Of a stretch of DNA of 35,666 bases, positions 1,052 through 25,917 are shown in pieces. Source of the DNA: Alphaproteobacteria bacterium (lineage in GTDB: Bacteria > Pseudomonadota > Alphaproteobacteria > UBA828); assembly GCA_022826665.1 (NCBI GenBank), contig JAJDUK010000044.1, forward strand, positions 1 through 35,666, in the 5' to 3' direction. Made by a program: the position numbers and the translations under genes. Within the stretch, counting starts at the first letter, position 1. Every line of letters begins with the position of its first letter. The notes under the pieces were generated by a model. The model worked only from the letters and a program-made list of their open reading frames with translations, was not told the DNA's origin and searched no databases.

Positions 1052-2773
1052 TTAAGTATTGTGCGAGGTGACAAGTTCAGCCTCCGTCAGATTCTCCTGT
1101 GACTTGGAGCGCGTGACATAGCCGGCTTCGAGATCCTGGCTTCGGCGCTGATCGCAACGTTCTTCTGGGTCGCCCCATCCACCGCCGCCGGCCGTCTGCT
1201 GGCTTACTATATCCCCCATTCTTAGCGGTATCTCGGCTCCCTTGGATGCGAAATTGGGTGATGCAGGTTGGAAGCCATCGCCGCGGTCGATCAGATAGGC
1301 GCCGGGCGCGCCTTCGCCACCGCCATCGAATCCCTTGGCCCCGAACTTACAGCGGTCAGCCACGAAGCTGAGTTCCGCGACATCGGAGAGGATCTCGTAA
1401 TCTCGCCTTGTGCCGAGCCCGCCTCGGTATTTCCCGTCACCTCCAGTATCCGCCCGCAGTTCGTACCGCTTTAGCCTGACCGGAAACTTCAGCTCCAAAG
1501 CCTCTGCAGGCATGTTGCGGCAGTTCCCGACGATCGAGAACAGGGCGCTTTCGCCATCCTTCTCCGGCGTCGCCCCCCAGGCACCTTCGGGATACTGGTA
1601 GAGAATTTGCATTCCAGCCTTGCCGTAGCAGGTTAGCAGCATGTTGTTGGACGACCCTTGGTCGCCAGCAATGAGATGTGGGCCGTTGGGCATGGTCGAA
1701 AGCGCCGCCATCAAGGCGTTGACAATCCGATGCGAGGTCTCGTTGCCAGCCGTGCAGGGAGCCGGAAAGGTTGGATGCACAACCGTGCCCTCACGACTCA
1801 CGATTTTGATCGGCCGATAGCAACCATGGTTGGGTGCTATTTCTGGATCGGTGGCGGCCTGCAGGCAAAGGTAGGTTGCCGATGCGGTCATGTAAGGAAC
1901 GGAATTGATCGGTCCACTCGCCTGCGGATCGGTGTCGCTGTAGTCGATCACCAAAGCGTCGCCGTCGACGACGACCTTGACTCGGATCGTAATCGGCTCG
2001 TCGGTAATGCCGTCGTTGTCCATGATGTCTTCGCCGAAGTACTCTCCATCGGGCCAAGACCTGATTACCGCGCGCATTCGAGCTTCAGAATCCGCGCGCG
2101 ATCGTTCCTCCGCAGATGCAATGGTAGCCCGGCCATACCGCTTGCACAGGGCTTGATATCGCAGGGCGGCACTGCGGTTCGCGGATACCTGCGCCGCGAG
2201 ATCTCCCTTCATGTTTTTTGGTACGCGGACGTTGTTGAGAATGAACTCGTAAACGTCACGCTGCCGCTCGCCCGCGCGGTACAACCAGACCGGCGGAATG
2301 CGCAGCCCTTCCATGAAGTTGTCTTTCGCCCGAGAGTAAAAGCTGCCCGGAACGGCGCCTCCGACGTCGGCATGATGGGCCCGGTTTGCAGCGAAGGCGA
2401 CCAGTTCGCCATCGTAAAAGATTGGGCTGACCATCGTGAGGTCCGGAAGATGAGTCCCGCCGCGATAGGGGTCGTTTGAAATGATAGCGTCACCGGGTTT
2501 GAATTCCCGCAGGGGCGCGAGTTCCTCGATCGCCTGACGCACGGCGTACTGCAAGGCTCCAAGGTGGATCGGCAAGAACTCGCCCTGCGCTGTCAGCCGC
2601 GCCTTCGCATCGAACAGCCCGCAGGAAAAGTCGCTGCCTTCATTGAAGATCTCCGAATAGGCGGTTTGCCGAAGCGTAACCCCCATCTCGCGGGAGACCG
2701 CGACAAGCGAGCTTCTGATGACACTAAACTGGATCGGATCGAAATTTCTGGCGACGGCGCTCGTGTCGGTCAT
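1052..2773 (-). CDS. hyuB: hydantoinase B / oxoprolinase-type subunit (HyuB)
   Basis: Beta subunit of an ATP-dependent hydantoinase/5-oxoprolinase-type enzyme, which opens five-membered lactam or hydantoin rings with its HyuA partner. The 573-residue length fits the family. Residues 100-145 hold the family block NDPYRGGTHLPD followed by ANRAHHADVGG and a PGS motif; the C-terminal third carries the usual glycine-rich KYRGGLGTRRDYEIL. The start overlaps the hyuA stop by four bases (ATGA), indicating translational coupling. It is encoded leftward with hyuA and ends near the oppositely oriented tRNA-Leu. The substrate (hydantoin, N-methylhydantoin, 5-oxoproline or acetophenone-carboxylase-like) cannot be read from sequence. 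The nearby amidase makes N-methylhydantoin or another hydantoin attractive, but that is inference. Confidence 0.92.
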   Translation of the reverse strand: MTDTSAVARNFDPIQFSVIRSSLVAVSREMGVTLRQTAYSEIFNEGSDFSCGLFDAKARLTAQGEFLPIHLGALQYAVRQAIEELAPLREFKPGDAIISNDPYRGGTHLPDLTMVSPIFYDGELVAFAANRAHHADVGGAVPGSFYSRAKDNFMEGLRIPPVWLYRAGERQRDVYEFILNNVRVPKNMKGDLAAQVSANRSAALRYQALCKRYGRATIASAEERSRADSEARMRAVIRSWPDGEYFGEDIMDNDGITDEPITIRVKVVVDGDALVIDYSDTDPQASGPINSVPYMTASATYLCLQAATDPEIAPNHGCYRPIKIVSREGTVVHPTFPAPCTAGNETSHRIVNALMAALSTMPNGPHLIAGDQGSSNNMLLTCYGKAGMQILYQYPEGAWGATPEKDGESALFSIVGNCRNMPAEALELKFPVRLKRYELRADTGGDGKYRGGLGTRRDYEILSDVAELSFVADRCKFGAKGFDGGGEGAPGAYLIDRGDGFQPASPNFASKGAEIPLRMGDIVSQQTAGGGGWGDPEERCDQRRSQDLEAGYVTRSKSQENLTEAELVTSHNT

Positions 2774-4803
2774 TGTTTAAGCCACTTCAGTTCGAGGAAG
2801 CCCGGCTTGACCGCCGAGCAGCTGGCGTCTGGCGGAACGACGATGGTTGCGTCGGACTGTTCGATGATGGCTGGTCCAAGTGTCGTCTCTGTCGTCTCGA
2901 CATCTCTACGCTTGAGAATCCGCGTCTCGAGCCAGCCCTGTTCGGGGCCCCAGTAGACTTTCCGGCTCCGAACGTCAGCCTCCAAGTCTGGCCAACGAGG
3001 ATCGCTGAACTCCTTATTCTCGGCGACGCTCACGGCGGCGACACGAATATTCACAGCTTCGACTGAGCTATCACGAAGCGAATGCCCGTAACGCGCCTCA
3101 TGAGAGTCATGAAAGTTCTCCGCCGCCTTGTCGGTATCGATCTGCCCCAACTCGACTGGAATGGTGATCTCGTGCGTTTGTCCGGCATACCTGATATCCA
3201 GTGCGGCGGAAACAATCACATTGCCATTCTTGGCGTCGTCGTGAAGCTCGGCAAGCGTTTCCTCGCTCAACTGTGTGAACATGTCGTGGAGCGCCATTGC
3301 TTCGAGATCCGCCAACGGCGTAAAGATCGTCTTCAGGCGCTCGCGGCGCCCATCGGCAAGTAACATGCCTTGAGCGGATGCGACGCCTGGGTAGGCGGGA
3401 ACGACCACTGAAGACATCTCCAATTCCGCCGCAACCTCCAGGCCGTGAGCGCCCCCGCCACCACCGAGTGCAACCAGGGCATAGTCGCGCGGATCGCGGG
3501 AGCGTTCGATGGAGACCGACCGTATCGCGTCTGCCATATTGCTATTGACGATGCGCAAGATGCCCCACGCCGTCTCTTCGCGGCTGAGGCCCAGTCGTAC
3601 CGCCAACGCTTCAATGGATTTCCACGCGCGTTCCCGGTCGAGGCGGAGCCCGCCGCCGATGGACAAGCGGGGATTGTAGCGGCCGAGGGCAATCGCCGCG
3701 TCAGTCACCGTCGGCTCCACACCACCCTTCCCATAGCAGGCAGGCCCGGGAACCGCGCCGGCGGAACGAGGGCCAACGAGAATGGTCCCGCCTTGATCGA
3801 CCCAAGCGATGCTGCCACCGCCGGCGCCGACACTGACGATGTCGAGGCAAGGAATCTGGATCGGATATCCCACGAGCTCGATGTAGGTATTGCGATCGGG
3901 CTCACCGTTCGTGACCGCCGCCACGTCGGTGCTCGTGCCCCCCATATCGAAACTGATCACATTGCTTCGCCCGAGAGCCTTGGCGATCTCAAGTGCCAAA
4001 ATCACCCCGCCAGCGGGACCGGAGAGCAGGGACTTCACCGGCACGCGACGCGCTTGAAGCGGATCTGCAAGGCCGCCGGAAGACTCCATGATCCGGAATC
4101 CCCCTTCCGCCAAGGAATGGGGAAGCGACCTTTCCAAGCCCTCCAGATAGTTGCTCATGATGGGACGGGCAATGGCATTGATACAGGTGGTGCTTGTCCG
4201 TTCGAACTCGCGATAGTGAGGCAAAACCTCGTGGGATAGAGACACGAACACTTTGTCGCCCAAGCGTTCCGCGATCGATTTGCCTAGCAAGAGCTCGTGC
4301 GCTGGATTTCTAAACGAGAACAACAGGCAGACCGCGACGCTGCTCACACCCGAAGCCTCGATCTCATCGACAACGCGCTTGATCTCGTCTTCTTGAAGCG
4401 GTTCGATGATACTTCCGTCCGCGGCAATTCGTTCACGCACTTCCAATCGCTGTTTTCGCTTGATCAGCGGTTCCGGCTTCTTTTGCGCGAGATTGAACAG
4501 ATCTTTTCGGTCCCCGCGCATGATCTCCAAAACATCTCTGAAACCATCGGTCGTGATCAGGAGGCAATCGGGACGATCCGAAGTTAGAAGAGCATTCACG
4601 ACGACAGTCGTACCGTGCCTTAACGTCGAAATTTCTGTCGGGTCCTCACAGACGGTGGCCAGCGCGGCCAAGAAGCCCGCTTCCAGCTTTCCCGGTGTGG
4701 TGGCAGACTTCCCCACAAACCAGGAACCATCGGCCCGACGGGTGATGGCGTCCGTAAATGTTCCGCCCATGTCTATTGCAATGTCCATGTGTTCACTCGA
4801 CAT
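2770..4803 (-). CDS. hyuA: hydantoinase A / oxoprolinase-type ATPase subunit (HyuA)
   Basis: ATP-binding subunit of the HyuAB enzyme. It contains two sugar-kinase/Hsp70-type phosphate-binding loops, DMGGTFTD at residues 11-18 and FDMGGTSTD at about 285-293. LLSGPAGG (about 259-266), SVGAGGGS (about 324-331) and the family signature GPRSAGAVPGPACYG (about 344-358) are also present. Length is 677 residues from the chosen ATG at 4803, which has AAGGGG eight bases upstream. In-frame starts further upstream (4854, 4911) lack a ribosome-binding site and would add a non-conserved extension. It is the first gene of the hyuA-hyuB operon and diverges from the glutamine-synthetase-like cluster across about 280-490 bp. 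Expected to hydrolyse ATP while opening a cyclic amide in the cytosol; exact substrate unknown. Confidence 0.92.
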   Translation of the reverse strand: MSSEHMDIAIDMGGTFTDAITRRADGSWFVGKSATTPGKLEAGFLAALATVCEDPTEISTLRHGTTVVVNALLTSDRPDCLLITTDGFRDVLEIMRGDRKDLFNLAQKKPEPLIKRKQRLEVRERIAADGSIIEPLQEDEIKRVVDEIEASGVSSVAVCLLFSFRNPAHELLLGKSIAERLGDKVFVSLSHEVLPHYREFERTSTTCINAIARPIMSNYLEGLERSLPHSLAEGGFRIMESSGGLADPLQARRVPVKSLLSGPAGGVILALEIAKALGRSNVISFDMGGTSTDVAAVTNGEPDRNTYIELVGYPIQIPCLDIVSVGAGGGSIAWVDQGGTILVGPRSAGAVPGPACYGKGGVEPTVTDAAIALGRYNPRLSIGGGLRLDRERAWKSIEALAVRLGLSREETAWGILRIVNSNMADAIRSVSIERSRDPRDYALVALGGGGGAHGLEVAAELEMSSVVVPAYPGVASAQGMLLADGRRERLKTIFTPLADLEAMALHDMFTQLSEETLAELHDDAKNGNVIVSAALDIRYAGQTHEITIPVELGQIDTDKAAENFHDSHEARYGHSLRDSSVEAVNIRVAAVSVAENKEFSDPRWPDLEADVRSRKVYWGPEQGWLETRILKRRDVETTETTLGPAIIEQSDATIVVPPDASCSAVKPGFLELKWLKQ

Positions 4804-5083
4804 GACCTGCGCCCCTTGGCTCCCTCGCTCATAAGGAGAGTCCTGGTTCTGCATAGCGCATTGTCGATGGGTTGGCACGCGCGCCGGTCGCGGAGCCCTC
4901 AACTCGCTCAAGCGCTCGGCGCGCGACCTACGCGGTGAACAACAAGCGTTGGCGTTTGACCCTTCGGCATCCGACAGTCAGTACATTGCTGAGGCGATCG
5001 GTGTTCGATCTGCGCGTTGAACAACACGGCGGGCCGCCTGCAGCACGTGGCGGCGGCGGCGCATCGCGCGAAGGCCGGCAGGA

Positions 5084-19757: not shown

Positions 19758-20378
19758 ATGTTCTACGAGACCGCGCGCAACGATCACGGCCTGCCGCACG
19801 ACCCCTTCAAGTCCTGCGTGGTGCCACGCCCGATCGGCTGGATCACCACGATCGATGCGGCCGGCGGGCTCAACCTCGCGCCCTTCAGCTACTTCAACGC
19901 ATGCGGCGACCATCCGCCGCAGGTGATGTACGCGCCGAGCGGGCCGCACGCGGCCGAGGGCGGCGCCAAGGACAGCCTGCACAACGTGCAGGAGACCGGC
20001 GAGTTCGTCGCCAACCTCGCCACCTGGGAGCAGCGCGAGGCGATGCGCCTCTCGTCGAGCGGGGTGCCGAGCAGCGTGGACGAGTTCGCGCTGACCGGGC
20101 TCGAGACCGAGCCCGCGCGGCTGGTGCGCCCGCCCAGGGTGAAGGGCGCGCCGATCCACCTCGAATGCCGGCTCCACAAGGTGATCGAGCTGCTGGCCGA
20201 CGACCCTGGGCGCTTCCGCAACTGGCTCGTGCTGGGCGAGGTGGTCGGCGTTCACATCGACGATTCGATCATCACCGACGGGCGCGTGGACCAGTCGAAG
20301 TTCCGGCCCATCGCGCGCCTCGGCTACGCCGACTACACCACGGTGGACAGCCACTTCGCGATGCCCTTCCCGGACTGA
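19758..20378 (+). CDS. flavin reductase-like / FMN-binding split-barrel protein
   Basis: 206-residue protein of the flavin reductase-like split-barrel family. It has the typical opening VVPRPIGWITTIDAAGGLNLAPFSYFN (split here as VVPRPIGWITT and NLAPFSYFN), then KDSLHNVQETGEFVANLAT, a GAPIHLECRL strand and the C-terminal RLGYADY. These proteins bind FMN and are reductases or oxidoreductases for another partner. Starts at ATG 19758, after the VOC gene stop. Proximity to F420 genes invites the idea of a deazaflavin enzyme, but the motifs fit the FMN-binding family and give no direct evidence for F420. Confidence 0.85.
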   Translation: MFYETARNDHGLPHDPFKSCVVPRPIGWITTIDAAGGLNLAPFSYFNACGDHPPQVMYAPSGPHAAEGGAKDSLHNVQETGEFVANLATWEQREAMRLSSSGVPSSVDEFALTGLETEPARLVRPPRVKGAPIHLECRLHKVIELLADDPGRFRNWLVLGEVVGVHIDDSIITDGRVDQSKFRPIARLGYADYTTVDSHFAMPFPD

Positions 20379-20406
20379 GGCGAGACTCCGGGGTTGAAGC
20401 GGCAGC

Positions 20407-20508
20407 TTAGGAGTCGCGTGGGAATTCGTTGCTCGTGTCGACCGTGAGCGCCATAACCGTCCCCTCAGATAGCAACGCCCGGAGCTTGAAGTCATCAAGT
20501 AGTGGCAT
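20407..20508 (-). CDS. possible 33-residue ORF or gene remnant
   Basis: A short leftward frame MPLLDDFKLRALLSEG...NEFPRDS between the flavin-reductase gene and the end of the ATPase-nuclease gene. Composition looks protein-like, but there is no clear ribosome-binding site and an in-frame stop lies 24 bases before the ATG. It could be the tail of a degraded gene at the islet boundary. The remaining bases of this 200-bp gap show nothing else. Confidence 0.25.
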   Translation of the reverse strand: MPLLDDFKLRALLSEGTVMALTVDTSNEFPRDS

Positions 20509-20584
20509 AAAGTGGAGCGCTTCGTCGCAAGTCTAGGCACAGGAACTGGTTAAGAGTAGCGCCTGAACCCAATCTCGATCCACA

Positions 20585-22576
20585 TCATTCGGCTGCTTGC
20601 TGTGTTTCACCCAGCTCACTTATCCTCTTTCGAACCTCTGGGCTCAGCAAGTCAGCGTTCACTGATCTCAAGTAAGCAAGCGCTTGTTCGTCGTTTGCTT
20701 GATAATCTAGCCGGCGCCTATAAAATGTGAGCCGGCCTTCGGCCTCTTGTACTATTTGGCCCCACGTCTTTACCCATACTCTTACATTCGGGCCGGTGTA
20801 CTCTGCCACTAGGCCAGGTTTTCGATCTCGTTGATTTGCGTCAAGGCGCGCGCCTTCCGACAGACTGTTAGACACCGCCACGAAGTCCCATTCCACTTCA
20901 TTGTCTTTGAATCGAGTATCATTGGCGACCGCTTGCGCGTATCGCTTTATCTGCGACATTGCGTTCTCATTAACCGGTTGAGACGGGCGTTTGAGCTCGA
21001 CAACGAGATGCTGGCGTTTCTGGTCATCCGGCAACGGGATGCGCTGAGACAACATAAGATCAACGATTGCATTCTTTCCTTCAGTGTCGAGTACCTTTTC
21101 ATTCACTTCTGGTGAGAGTTCGCTCCTGTCCTCGCCTAAGAGGTTAAGGTGTGCGCGGAGAACTGAAGTTAGATCCTCATCATCGTTAACAAGATTATAT
21201 TGCTCACCAAAGAGCCAACAATTGCGCGCTATTATTCGGTGAAGCTGAGAGCGTTCTAGGAGCTGCCGTTTGGATTTCGGATCGTAGATAAGTATTTGCA
21301 GGGCTTTAATGAAATCCAACCTAGACGTAACCTCTTTGGCTGCCTCGATTATGGCACTTAGAGTCGTCTTTTGCAGCAGATTTGCCATCTCCTCCTGTCG
21401 CTCTGGAGGAAGGTTGATCACCTCGGAAAGCAAGTTTGGTAGAACGCTGGGCCCAGTTTCGACAGTTGATTTCAACAATTGAAAAACCAGCTTCTGTGTT
21501 TTCTCGGGCGAGCTTTCAAATTCTGTGCTGTAGTCTGACAAATTTAGCGCCACAACGTCAAAGACCTGACGTTCGTTTCGCTCAATGGGATTGGCCGCTG
21601 CGCCCGAGTATGGATATATTCCCGCTGCCTGCCACTCCTCAATCTTCACCCTCGATCGCTCAGCTTCCCGTTCCCGAAAATGCGACCGCATAGCATCTTT
21701 CGCGGCATCGATCAGCGTTAGCGAAGGAGGATCAAGTTCGATAAGGCCTTCTCTGTTCTCCTCTGCGAGTTGCCCAAAATGATCCGCAGTCAGATAGGCC
21801 GTAAAGTAGAAACCTCGCGCCTGAATGCCTGGAGCAATTTCGTGGAAGCTGAATCGTCCGGGAAGACAGAGCAATAGCTTTCGTTGTACCCGCTTGCGCC
21901 ATTCGACGATCTCAAGCTTGGCGGAGTACTCGACTCCATCCTCGGTCTGGGTTGAGAGGGTGACCGGCGTTACTGACTCAATCGCTTCAGAGGCATCAAT
22001 GTCCACCCCGTCATAGATCAACGTAAATGAATTATCCTCGTAAAGTTGCAAGGCGAAGATGTCACGGATTAGGTCAGCGAAACCATGCTCCGACCGAATC
22101 TGAAAATCCTTTGCGATATTGGTAATTTCCACCGTACAGCCACGGCTAGGTGTTGTGATTGTTTCACTAACGTGGAATTGCTTTAAGTTGTCTACAGAGC
22201 CGACGACAGTGAACCTCTTTCCCTCGCAATGGGATATCCAGGAAACAGTTGTTCCGAGAGCAAAGGCTTTCATGCGGCCCTGGCCCTTAGTGCCGTGGAT
22301 ACTTCTTCCTTGGTCGGTGCGACGTTTCATGCGCTTCCAAGAGCCACCGATACTCTTGAAAAGTCGCGCAGCATCCCCGTAAGGAATACCGGTGCCGTTA
22401 TCAATTACACGGATGAGGCTCAGTTTCGTAAGTATTCCCTCTTCAAATTCAATCCGCACTTCATTCGCGTCCGCGTCGTAGGCATTCCAAATTAGCTCCG
22501 AGATAGCATTGATGGGTTTGGCCTTTGCGAGGCTCTCAATGTGGTCTTTTTCAACAACGACTTCAAAAGTTTCCAT
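20585..22576 (-). CDS. GHKL (MORC/Hsp90-type) ATPase fused to C-terminal PD-(D/E)XK nuclease, candidate defence protein
   Basis: 663-residue two-part protein. The N-terminal GHKL ATPase has the N-box ISELIWNAYDADANEV (Glu27, Asn31, Asp34), the G1 box VIDNGTGIP (Asp59-Gly63) and the G2 box HGTKGQGRMKAFALG (about 94-108). The C-terminal region has a helix QLHRIIARNCWLFGEQY (about 444-460), Asp506 in AIVDLML, Glu527-x-Lys529 in HLVVELKRP and Gln542 in SQIKRYAQAV. Together this is a PD-(D/E)XK layout like Shedu/DUF4263-type nucleases. Start ATG 22576 has GGGGG upstream; a GTG at 22591 is the alternative. Sampled lines are 40-53% G+C against about 80% in a housekeeping line, so it was acquired horizontally. 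Likely cytoplasmic, DNA-directed and ATP-gated. The defence role is inference. Confidence 0.8.
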   Translation of the reverse strand: METFEVVVEKDHIESLAKAKPINAISELIWNAYDADANEVRIEFEEGILTKLSLIRVIDNGTGIPYGDAARLFKSIGGSWKRMKRRTDQGRSIHGTKGQGRMKAFALGTTVSWISHCEGKRFTVVGSVDNLKQFHVSETITTPSRGCTVEITNIAKDFQIRSEHGFADLIRDIFALQLYEDNSFTLIYDGVDIDASEAIESVTPVTLSTQTEDGVEYSAKLEIVEWRKRVQRKLLLCLPGRFSFHEIAPGIQARGFYFTAYLTADHFGQLAEENREGLIELDPPSLTLIDAAKDAMRSHFREREAERSRVKIEEWQAAGIYPYSGAAANPIERNERQVFDVVALNLSDYSTEFESSPEKTQKLVFQLLKSTVETGPSVLPNLLSEVINLPPERQEEMANLLQKTTLSAIIEAAKEVTSRLDFIKALQILIYDPKSKRQLLERSQLHRIIARNCWLFGEQYNLVNDDEDLTSVLRAHLNLLGEDRSELSPEVNEKVLDTEGKNAIVDLMLSQRIPLPDDQKRQHLVVELKRPSQPVNENAMSQIKRYAQAVANDTRFKDNEVEWDFVAVSNSLSEGARLDANQRDRKPGLVAEYTGPNVRVWVKTWGQIVQEAEGRLTFYRRRLDYQANDEQALAYLRSVNADLLSPEVRKRISELGETQQAAE

Positions 22577-22600
22577 TCGGCACCCCCACACGGTTTCTGG

Positions 22601-22813
22601 TCAGCAAGCTGGAAGAGAAATTATGTCATTGTTAAGGTCGACAGCCGGAAACAGGCCTGTGACTTCAGCTTTGGAAATCTCCGTTATTGGAAGCAAGACT
22701 TGGTGATGTCCGCATTTGATGCAATGAAATTGGTCATGCCATCCTCTCCGCGGCTCCGAAGGACCGTCCCACGATACCGAGCGCTTCTCCCAGTTCTTGC
22801 AAATCAATATCAC
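22601..22813 (-). CDS. small Cys/His protein upstream of the ATPase-nuclease
   Basis: A 70-residue frame from GTG 22813 with AGAGG six bases upstream, ending 24 bases before the ATPase-nuclease start in the same direction and with the same AT-rich composition. It contains WHDQFHCIKCGHHQ (Cys31-x2-Cys34 with His26, His30, His36, His37), suggesting a zinc knuckle or half zinc ribbon; Cys5 and C-terminal Cys70 may add ligands. No family recognised. A partly overlapping rightward frame (22541-23110) also reads open, so the strand call rests on the motif, ribosome-binding site and operon position. Confidence 0.5.
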   Translation of the reverse strand: MILICKNWEKRSVSWDGPSEPRRGWHDQFHCIKCGHHQVLLPITEISKAEVTGLFPAVDLNNDIISLPAC

Positions 22814-23035
22814 GAATTGCCTCTGGTCGCGATGTCCGCAAACGGCGGTCGGATGCCTCGTCCTTGCCCATCTAGGAGGTCTTCCCGGCGCCGAGCTCGG
22901 GGTCAAGATCGACGCCGGCATCGGGGAAGGCTGCCGTTGACTCGGCAGGTTCCCGCCTTGTCCCGGCGAATTCCGGTTCCCGCGCGGCCTGCGCCTCGCC
23001 CTAGCGCGCTGGTAGCCGCCGCGCGGGGCGCATGG

Positions 23036-23062
23036 ATGGCCGCAACAAGTGCGGCCATGACG
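23036..23062. repeat. dispersed palindrome family A, single unit
   Basis: Hairpin with arms ATGGCCGCA and TGCGGCCAT around ACAAG, followed by GACG; the 23-base core is identical to the right unit at 12960-12982. From about 22,830 to 23,920 there is no convincing gene, only repeats such as this one. Confidence 0.85.
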
Positions 23063-23216
23063 ATTCAGGGGGTCGCAGAGATGAATGGGAACTTCTCGGA
23101 CGGGGAGTAATTCGGCTGGCTTCGTCTCACCTCGCTGGCTCGCGGTGTTGGCGAAGAGCGGCGGCGTGAGGATGCGCGGGCAGTCGATCCGCACCTTCCC
23201 CTGTCCCTCCCAACTT

Positions 23217-23297
23217 ATTCATTTCCCTCAATCGCCGGGCGCTCACTCCGTTCGCTTGGCTCCGCGCTACGCGCGCGGCGCATTCGCGCCGTCCGGG
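23217..23297 (-). repeat. dispersed repeat family B, copy 2 (inverted)
   Basis: Reverse-complement match to 740-812, sharing the blocks CCCGGACGGCGCGA, GCGCCGCGCGCG and GATTGAGGGAAA. The ends of both copies can pair internally (GCGCCG/CGGCGC). Confidence 0.6.
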
Positions 23298-23355
23298 CTG
23301 CTTCGCAGCCCGGCTCTCTACACGGCAGACACCTCGTCTGTTGCCGGGAACGCAC

Positions 23356-23377
23356 CCCGGACCATGGTGCGGTGCAC
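23356..23377 (+). repeat. dispersed repeat family C, copy 1
   Basis: A 22-base stretch beginning CCCGGACCATGG and ending GGTGCAC. It is identical to the reverse complement of 29100-29121 and contains the palindromes CCATGG and GTGCAC. Confidence 0.7.
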
Positions 23378-23465
23378 CGGGCGCGGCGACGGTGCCAGGA
23401 TCGCGCCACGATGCGCGAGCGAGTCAGCGAAGTCGGCCCGTGGGTGATCGGTCTCGAGGATGGCC

Positions 23466-23503
23466 GGATGCCCGGAACGAGTCCAGGCATGTGCGGGCAT
23501 GAC
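23466..23503. repeat. dispersed palindrome family A, degraded unit
   Basis: GGATGCCCGGAACGAGTCC-A-GGCATG followed by CGGGCATGACG: an imperfect hairpin related to the other family A units. Confidence 0.6.
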
Positions 23504-23674
23504 GGGACGGGACACGAGGCAGATGTGGAGGAGCTTCTTGAGACGAAAATCCCGCCGTGGAATGCCACCCATCCCAGCCATCCCGCCTAATCCCGGCGCG
23601 TTCCGCATGAAATTAAGTTGTCGCATCCCACTTTCGCCACGGGGCGTTCTCTCGGCCCACCCGTTCTCTCACAT

Positions 23675-23713
23675 CGTCATGCCCGCACTTGTTGCGGGCA
23701 TCCACGCGTTTTT
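23675..23713. repeat. dispersed palindrome family A, left unit
   Basis: CGTCATGCCCGCA-CTTGT-TGCGGGCATCCACGCG followed by a T-run. Arms ATGCCCGCA/TGCGGGCAT are perfect. It faces the inverted unit at 23851. Confidence 0.85.
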
Positions 23714-23850
23714 CTGAGTACGGCGGGTTTTGCTGAGGAAGATGGCTCGATACACGAAACGAGTGGGGGCAAGTCCAGGCTTGACGCGAGAACACCGTGT
23801 AAGCGTGCGCGACTCCTCTTGTGCGCGCGAGACCTTTCAGGCTCGCGCGG

Positions 23851-23882
23851 CGTGGATGGCCGGAACAAGTCCGGCCATGACG
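23851..23882. repeat. dispersed palindrome family A, right unit
   Basis: CGTGGATGGCCGGA-ACAAG-TCCGGCCATGACG with perfect arms, inverted relative to the unit at 23675. It lies just past the end of the fused E1 gene. Confidence 0.85.
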
Positions 23883-23922
23883 AAAAGGAGTATTGGTCCC
23901 GCCCTAGCCGAGACTGCAGGCC

Positions 23923-25917
23923 CTACAGCAGCTCGCGGATCGCCTCGACGATGCGGTCCTGCGAGGGGATGACCTCCAATTCGAGCCGGTCGTTGTAAGG
24001 CATCGGCGTGTGCGGCGCGCCGAGGCGGGCGACGGGCGCATCGAGATAATCGAAGGCCTTGTCCACCACCATGGCCGCCACCTCGGCGCCGAAGCCGCCG
24101 CGCACCCAGGCCTCGTGCACGATCAGCAGCCGGTTGGTCTTGCGCACGGAGGCGAGGATGGTCTCCTCGTCCAGCGGCTGCAGGGTGCGAGGGTCGATCA
24201 CCTCGACGCTGATGCCGTCGCGCTCCAGCACCGTGGCCGCGCTCAGCGCGCGCGGCACCATGGCGGACGTCGCCACCACGGTCACGTCCGTGCCCGCGCG
24301 CTTGATGTCGGCCTTGCCGAGGGGGATGGCGTAGAGCTCTTCCGGCACCGGGCCGTTGCCGCCGAGGTAGAGCAGCTTCTGCTCCAGGAAGACCACGGGG
24401 TTCTCGTCGCGGATCGCGGCGACCAGCAGCCCCTTCGCGTCGTAAGGAGTGGACGGCGCCGCCACCACCAGCCCCGGCACGTGGGTGAACCAGGCCTCCA
24501 GGCTCTGGCTGTGCTGGGCCGCGAGCCGGATGCCGCCGCCCTGCGGCCCGCGCACCACCATCGGCACGCTGGGCTTGCCGCCCAGCATGAAGCGGAACTT
24601 GGCCGCCTGGTTGACCAGCATGTCCATGGTGAGCGCCACGAAGTCGAAGATCTGGATCTCCACCACAGGCCGCATGCCGGCGATGGCGGCGCCGACGCCG
24701 CAGCCGACGAAGGTGGCCTCGGAGATCGGCGTGTCGCGCACGCGCTCAGGCCCGTAGCGGTCCATCAGCCCCTTGGAGACGCCGAAGATGCCGCCGGTGG
24801 CGCCGACATCCTCGCCCATGAGGAAGACCCGGTCGTCGCGCAGCATCTCCTGGTCCAGCGCCTCGTTGAGCGCCTCGGGGTAGGAGAGCTCGCGCTCGGT
24901 CTCAGGCCCCGGCTCCGTGTGCGCCGCGTGGGGGGCGTAGACGGCATCGAGCATGACGTGCACCGGCGGCTCCGGGCTCTCGCGGCCGTAGGAGACGGCG
25001 GTCTCGATCTCATCGTCCACGGCCTGCGTGGTCTCGTCGAACTGCTCATCGGAGAAGCTGGCCTCGGAGGTGAGCCGCTTCTCCATGCGCGCGATGGGGT
25101 CGCGGTCGAGCCAGGATTCGAGCTCGTCCTCGGGCCGCGGGTCGCGCAGGTTGACGCGGAGAGAGTGCTGGCCGTGGCGGTAGGTCATGGCCTCGATCAG
25201 GGTCGGGCCTTCGCCGGCGCGGGCGCGGTCCACCGCCTCGCGCAGCACGAGGTAGACCTCGACGCCGTCGTTGCCGTCCACGGTGATGCCGGGGATCTCG
25301 TAGGAGGCCGCGCGGTTCGAGACCTGGGAGACGGCTGTGGTGTTCCGATAGGAGGTGGAGAGCGCGTACTGGTTGTTCTCGCAGACGAAGATCACCGGCA
25401 GCTTCCATACCGCCGCCAGGTTGAGCGATTCGTGGAAGACGCCCTGGTTGGACGCACCGTCGCCGAAGAAGGCCACCGCCACCCGATCCGTCCCCTGCAG
25501 CTTGGCGGCGAGGCCCGCGCCGGTGGCGAGCGGCATGGCGGCGCCCACGATGCCGTTCGCGCCCATGATGTTGAGCTCCATGTCGGCGATGTGCATGGAG
25601 CCGCCGAGGCCCTGGCAGTAGCCGGTCTGGCGGCCCATCAGCTCCGCCATCATGCGGTCGATGCGGGCGCCCTTGGCGATGCAGTGGCCGTGGCCGCGGT
25701 GGTAGGAGGCGATGATGTCGTCATCGCGCAGCGCCGCGCAGACGCCGGCGGCGATCGCCTCCTCGCCCTTGTAGCTGTGGGCCGTGCCCTTGACGACGCC
25801 CTCCTGGAAGAGGTCGGCGGTCTTGTCCTCGAAGGCGCGGATGCGGCGCATGGTGACATAGAGGTCGCGGAGGGTCTCCGCCTCAACGGTAATGTTGCTG
25901 GTCGCGCTCTCGTTCAT
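23923..25917 (-). CDS. fused TPP-dependent dehydrogenase E1 alpha-beta
   Basis: 664-residue protein joining both E1 subunits of an acetoin/branched-chain/pyruvate-type dehydrogenase. The alpha part (about 1-320) has [21 protein letters not shown] and the TPP motif GDGASNQG (Gly152-Asp153-Gly154) to CENNQY (Asn181/182). The beta part (from about 338) opens [14 protein letters not shown] and continues with [43 protein letters not shown] and [18 protein letters not shown] 25917 is chosen because the upstream extension is Arg-rich and AGGGAGG precedes this ATG. No E2 or E3 gene is nearby. It resembles the separate pair at 13148-15132 but is clearly not a recent copy. Divergent from the MFS gene. 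Confidence 0.92.

Follow-up and report, generated by a model that had tools for sequence, protein, structure and literature searches.

The window, by which we mean the whole 35,666-nucleotide stretch of alphaproteobacterial DNA analysed here (contig JAJDUK010000044.1), carries a single-gene locus whose product joins a GHKL ATPase and an S5-like domain to a C-terminal PD-(D/E)XK nuclease (Table 1). A sequence-only reading had placed a candidate undescribed defence system at 20585-22813; this span does contain the gene, but its right end adds about 240 bases upstream of it. The longest frame, 20585-22591(-), is opened by a GTG at 22591 and would give 668 residues, yet we prefer the ATG at 22576 because the nearest homologue, L054 (68% identity), begins at this same place (METFE...). 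With this start, all residue numbers given earlier are correct (E27, N31, D34, D59-G63, D506, E527-x-K529 and Q542), and the glycine box, here at 94-101, and the W454-L-F-G motif fit as well; the list of nuclease-site residues was right as far as it went, but left out E441, with which the E-D-ExK signature begins. A frame of 663 codons is not a product of chance: in 500 shuffles, no stop-free run exceeded 214 codons. The gene is present in a single copy in its own genome. No known RNA family was found in 20000-24500, and a promoter and terminator scan scored no better than shuffles.

Table 1. Features of the locus, in window coordinates.
Feature	Position	Strand	Basis or remark
CDS, 663 aa, GHKL ATPase-S5 + PD-(D/E)XK nuclease	20585..22576	-	ATG start
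GHKL ATPase domain, ~residues 1-160	22097..22576	-	E27, N31, D34; D59-G63; glycine box 94-101
S5-like transducer domain, ~residues 161-305	21662..22096	-	VIA-align to MORC/TRAP1 up to residues 303-308; boundary approximate
Helical middle segment, ~residues 306-427	21296..21661	-	AF2 model, helices 283-431
PD-(D/E)XK nuclease domain, residues 428-628	20693..21295	-	Conserved site, fold model, hhalign to SduA proteins
Active-site E441	21254-21256	-	Nuclease domain
Active-site D506	21059-21061	-	Nuclease domain
Active-site E527	20996-20998	-	Nuclease domain
Active-site K529	20990-20992	-	Nuclease domain; Q542 accompanies the active site
Islet outside genus synteny: gene + ~1.3 kb of repeat-rich non-coding DNA	20396..23916	.	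Congener synteny blocks
Upstream non-coding DNA of dispersed genomic repeats	22600..23920	.	58 further matches in own genome; 36-nt palindromic repeats

The gene had been called compositionally foreign, and this description holds. Its ORF contains 50% G+C whereas the flanks reach 69-70%, GC3 is 52% compared with 96% in the dehydrogenase-type gene next to it, and nowhere in the window does the tetranucleotide profile deviate more. The hand counts of G+C offered earlier (24/60 and 48/60) were exact; the term "AT-rich" applies relative to the genome, the ORF having 50% G+C. The gene is absent from 7 further genomes of the genus. Among 13 genomes of other genera of the family, there were just two weak matches, both shorter than 100 residues and confined to the GHKL region. 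Collinearity with congeners stops on the left at 20376-20395 and begins again on the right at 23917-23923; in the two congeners which have both flanks on one contig, these are separated by tens of kilobases and oriented differently to each other, which places the islet at a point of rearrangement. Horizontal acquisition of the gene is supported. The genes of the left flank are metabolic (glyoxalase, flavin reductase), and the right flank holds a long dehydrogenase-type ORF, a family name which is a reading of its sequence and not a profile match. The gene has no defence neighbours in the window, which also holds no integrase or satellite genes. As to the non-coding DNA upstream, a repeat element of about 100 nt near 23190-23410 occurs in more than 30 places of the same genome, and a 36-nt palindromic repeat is found at 23029, 23673 and 23850. 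Elsewhere in the window (1052-4911), hydantoinase/oxoprolinase A and B genes lie in a stretch of lower G+C beside a tRNA-Leu (876-963) and may form an island.

The N-terminal half had been described as an intact GHKL ATPase, and a search by profile and by structure agrees with this. HATPase_c_3 of Pfam matches the protein at 1.1e-14, and in the alignment of 53 homologues (A3) the ATP-binding motifs are invariant (E27, N31, D34, D59, G61, G63, H94, G95, G98, G100 and R101). In an AlphaFold2 (AF2) model of the whole protein as a monomer (mean pLDDT 86), residues 7-307 align with MORC3 (5ix2; Z 18.3, rmsd 4.0, 278 residues), and the same stretch also aligns with TRAP1, MORC2 and SMCHD1, which points to a GHKL domain followed by S5. 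Two more specific identities were rejected: full-length MutL scored 35 bits against a cut-off of 180, in the GHKL region only, and the BbrUII/HgiDII GHKL restriction enzymes scored 58.1 bits against a curated cut-off of 550, the best stretch being limited to 30-140.

At the C-terminus, Pfam gave nothing but sub-threshold matches (HSDR_N_2 and NucS_C). The PD-(D/E)XK site proposed there is nevertheless well founded, as E441, W454, D506, E527 and K529 are invariant in the 53 homologues and Q542 is conserved in at least 90%. When this domain was modelled alone (pLDDT 90.5), a structure search matched it best to EndoMS/NucS (Z 10.1, 112 residues), then to AF1548 and N.BspD6I (both 9.1) and FokI (8.3), while E. 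coli SduA (8ps4) followed at Z 7.9 over 144 residues and B. cereus Shedu at 7.8 over 135 residues. The modelled structure thus establishes the PD-(D/E)XK fold class, within which Shedu is not singled out.

Profile comparisons say more about the link to Shedu. The curated SduA_C profile (DUF4263, PF14082) matched neither the protein of the window nor 10 further homologues from the clade and its sister clade at E up to 1, and formal Shedu membership by this profile is therefore not given. On the other hand, A3 aligns with classical SduA over the W-x-F-G helix and the ExK core (hhalign 81.8%, E 1.1e-5), and the nuclease alone does so at 93.3%, whereas control domain pairs gave 0.2 and 2.0%; these matches span about 70-80 columns. 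Intermediates exist as well: GHKL proteins bearing SduA_C (A5; L052 at 27.0 bits, exactly the cut-off, and L053 at 21.6) match A3 between residue 20 and about residue 620 (99.6%, E 1.5e-24), and the sister clade A4 aligns with A3 over its full length (E 3.6e-58, 22% identity). All these E-values apply to one pair comparison each. Both groups share the two-domain plan, but at about 18-24% identity they are separate clades. Remote homology of the clade's nuclease with SduA is thus likely. What had been called "Shedu-like" stands as far as the W454-L-F-G motif and the profile match are concerned, but not as a direct SduA_C match or a Shedu-specific fold; unlike classical Shedu, the protein carries a GHKL-S5 ATPase at its N-terminus, and other PD-(D/E)XK enzymes fit its nuclease fold equally.

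The architecture was considered undescribed in the sequence-only reading, which could not match it to a named system. This part of the reading was mistaken. Iyer, Abhiman and Aravind (2008, PMC2292703) defined paraMORC3 as a GHKL-S5 protein with a C-terminal restriction-endonuclease fold and an E-D-ExK signature, partly standalone and mobile. The gene of the window fits this family, as it has a GHKL domain with all ATP-binding motifs, S5 after it, a restriction-endonuclease fold with E441/D506/E527-x-K529, and the standalone, patchy and laterally mobile occurrence of a family common in proteobacteria. It needs to be mentioned that the 2008 work was a prediction only, and that our clade is matched to it by description and not by sequence. 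What lacks a name is this particular clade, for which the searched copies of Pfam, NCBIfam and PADLOC hold no dedicated model.

An anti-phage role of such an architecture is, moreover, already proven. VcSduA, a GHKL-DUF4263 protein and the type I-D Shedu of V. cholerae VSP-II, shields both E. coli and V. cholerae from phages, and either E27A or K557A abolishes defence; the host remains viable and cultures are protected at all tested MOIs (Adams et al. 2025, PMC12137116). Like the gene of the window, it is a single gene combining a GHKL ATPase with a PD-(D/E)XK nuclease and is carried on a mobile island; in VcSduA, both active sites are needed for defence. However, by published residue numbers its Glu-Lys spacing is 530 (E27/K557) against 497-519 in our clade, and therefore VcSduA probably represents another branch. 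A search of Gammaproteobacteria for GHKL-SduA_C proteins returned analogues (L239, L245), none of which was identified as VcSduA. What is new here is the lead from P4-like satellites described below, the GHKL-nuclease fusion being known already as a family.

Relatives of the gene are widespread. In the genome collection, 494 stretches encode one, a pattern-based count that is neither complete nor made up of close relatives only; in genome contigs, a single-protein query found nothing while an alignment query did. Further relatives were found in 46 plasmid records, 2 phage records and at 55 IMG/VR loci, a large part of the latter belonging to the distant sister clade. Such relatives are carried as stand-alone cargo by plasmids, prophages and phages. 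A tree of 39 members shows Pseudomonadota interspersed with nine other phyla, and its well-supported branches force at least 4 label changes, a mixture compatible with transfer between phyla but not proof of it. Some plasmid copies are truncated beside IS elements, as expected of a dispensable gene.

The most telling location is that of the E. coli homologue (WP_021536577, 34% identical), which is flanked by psu on one side and int on the other in P4-like satellites and is present in 11 of 5,426 complete genomes. The same slot holds the Salmonella copy and that of an IMG/VR contig (L142) (psu-int loci: L281, L282, L036 and L142), and it has been shown to be a hotspot of antiviral systems (Rousset et al. 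2022, PMC9122126). Slot exchange is seen in Pasteurella phages, where Pmp14 and Pmp3 carry the gene in a slot occupied in Pmp1 by two other small genes. Both the psu-int slot and the Pasteurella exchange indicate the behaviour of defence cargo. The two Pmp1 genes (L283:3592-4259) have no Pfam match and are a candidate defence or anti-defence pair in their own right.

Among typical neighbourhoods, one relative is surrounded by a conjugation operon (L031), one adjoins a type ISP restriction enzyme (L032), another Drt2 and a cytosine methylase/LlaMI pair (L033), and a fourth an abortive-infection family gene (L275). The enrichment in defence islands for which a neighbourhood analysis had been proposed did not emerge clearly: when PADLOC was run on 150 near and 150 far neighbour proteins, defence matches near the homologues were not clearly richer than those 8-10 kb away. 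Strong systems were present in both sets (Gabija, type I RM, type IV REase, DarG and HmaC near; Qat, HerA-SIR2 and AbiLi far), and therefore this comparison is no clean enrichment test.

We consider it probable that the gene serves in anti-phage or anti-MGE defence of some kind, and the role proposed in the sequence-only reading gains support from where such genes reside: on phages, on plasmids and in satellites, the psu-int slot among them. In favour of this, and of the more specific reading given next, we count the invariance of both active sites, the two folds, the profile link to SduA, the behaviour of VcSduA, the mobile carriers, the psu-int slot, the slot exchange in Pasteurella phages, the defence-gene neighbours of relatives and the absence from seven congeners. 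Against them we count that the clade has no known phage phenotype, that it is identified by none of SduA_C, PADLOC and NCBIfam, that the window has no defence neighbours, that near/far enrichment is unclear, and that the best nuclease fold match is EndoMS/NucS, a repair enzyme. The more specific reading which we favour, and think likely, is a horizontally acquired single-gene defence of the paraMORC3 (GHKL-Shedu-like) type, acting as a direct ATP-gated DNA nuclease. By analogy with MutL, MORC and VcSduA, two subunits would dimerise via their ATP-bound GHKL domains, as in MutL, MORC and TRAP1, to form a DNA clamp; this clamp may engage some feature of invading DNA, such as its ends, an intermediate of replication or recombination, or a protein bound to it; and engagement would alter the ATP state, releasing the C-terminal nuclease to nick or cut the invading DNA.

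A variant to which we give a smaller chance, clearly short of even, is that the clade stands apart from Shedu as a separate defence family, whose MORC-like, ATP-closed DNA clamp senses a feature that is not a free DNA end (topology, replication/recombination intermediates or a phage protein) and licenses the nuclease.

Single-gene nuclease systems commonly have an abortive outcome, and RNA or tRNA can be a substrate of PD-(D/E)XK nucleases. The nuclease might respond to a sensed infection by attacking the DNA or RNA of the host, a scenario we find unlikely: among tested proteins VcSduA is the closest in architecture, and it protects cultures at every MOI tried, which argues for direct restriction (PMC12137116). 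Since VcSduA, of the same architecture, behaves so, we prefer direct restriction of phage DNA over suicide.

A role in DNA repair, with a MutL-like ATPase and a NucS/EndoMS-like nuclease acting on mismatched or branched DNA, be it cellular or that of mobile elements, seems to us quite improbable. The GHKL profile is close to MutL, a GHKL-S5 ATPase coupled to a DNA nuclease is common to both cases, EndoMS is the best fold match, and recruitment of standalone versions to mismatch repair was allowed for by Iyer et al. (PMC2292703). However, MutL and EndoMS/NucS are housekeeping repair proteins, whereas the gene studied here is sporadic cargo, missing from all 7 congeners, found on phages and plasmids and in the defence slot of P4 satellites, and in part truncated on plasmids. 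Least probable of all is the nuclease subunit of a type II BbrUII/HgiDII-like restriction-modification system, which would cut unmodified sites and need a methyltransferase: despite weak matches to BbrUII/HgiDII (6e-16) and PADLOC REase_II, and methylases or RM genes adjoining some relatives, these matches are confined to the GHKL domain, no methyltransferase adjoins the gene in the window, P4 satellites or phages, and the homologues have no conserved partner.

MutL, MORC and topoisomerase ATPases share one common engine that moves or clamps DNA, and the clade offers a compact one-protein model that contains both such an engine and an attached nuclease which it may control. Its natural E. coli copy in the psu-int slot makes it directly testable in laboratory K-12. 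If it proves active, GHKL-nuclease defence would be a class that, VcSduA aside, is present across many phyla in hundreds of bacterial genomes, and defence databases would be shown to miss the clade.

A constant partner gene was considered and rejected: a convergent pPIWI-associating nuclease gene (pP_pnuc_1/2) about 20 bases after the homologue (L031:10030-10824, L055, L057, L059, L065 and L066) is shared by no more than 6 of some 19 close relatives, and the window lacks it. It is possibly an accessory gene or part of a shared cassette. In genome G031 (L041:814-2067; L004), a paraMORC3 homologue has a classical Shedu gene as its near neighbour, at a distance of a few hundred bases, so that two PD-(D/E)XK defence genes stand side by side.
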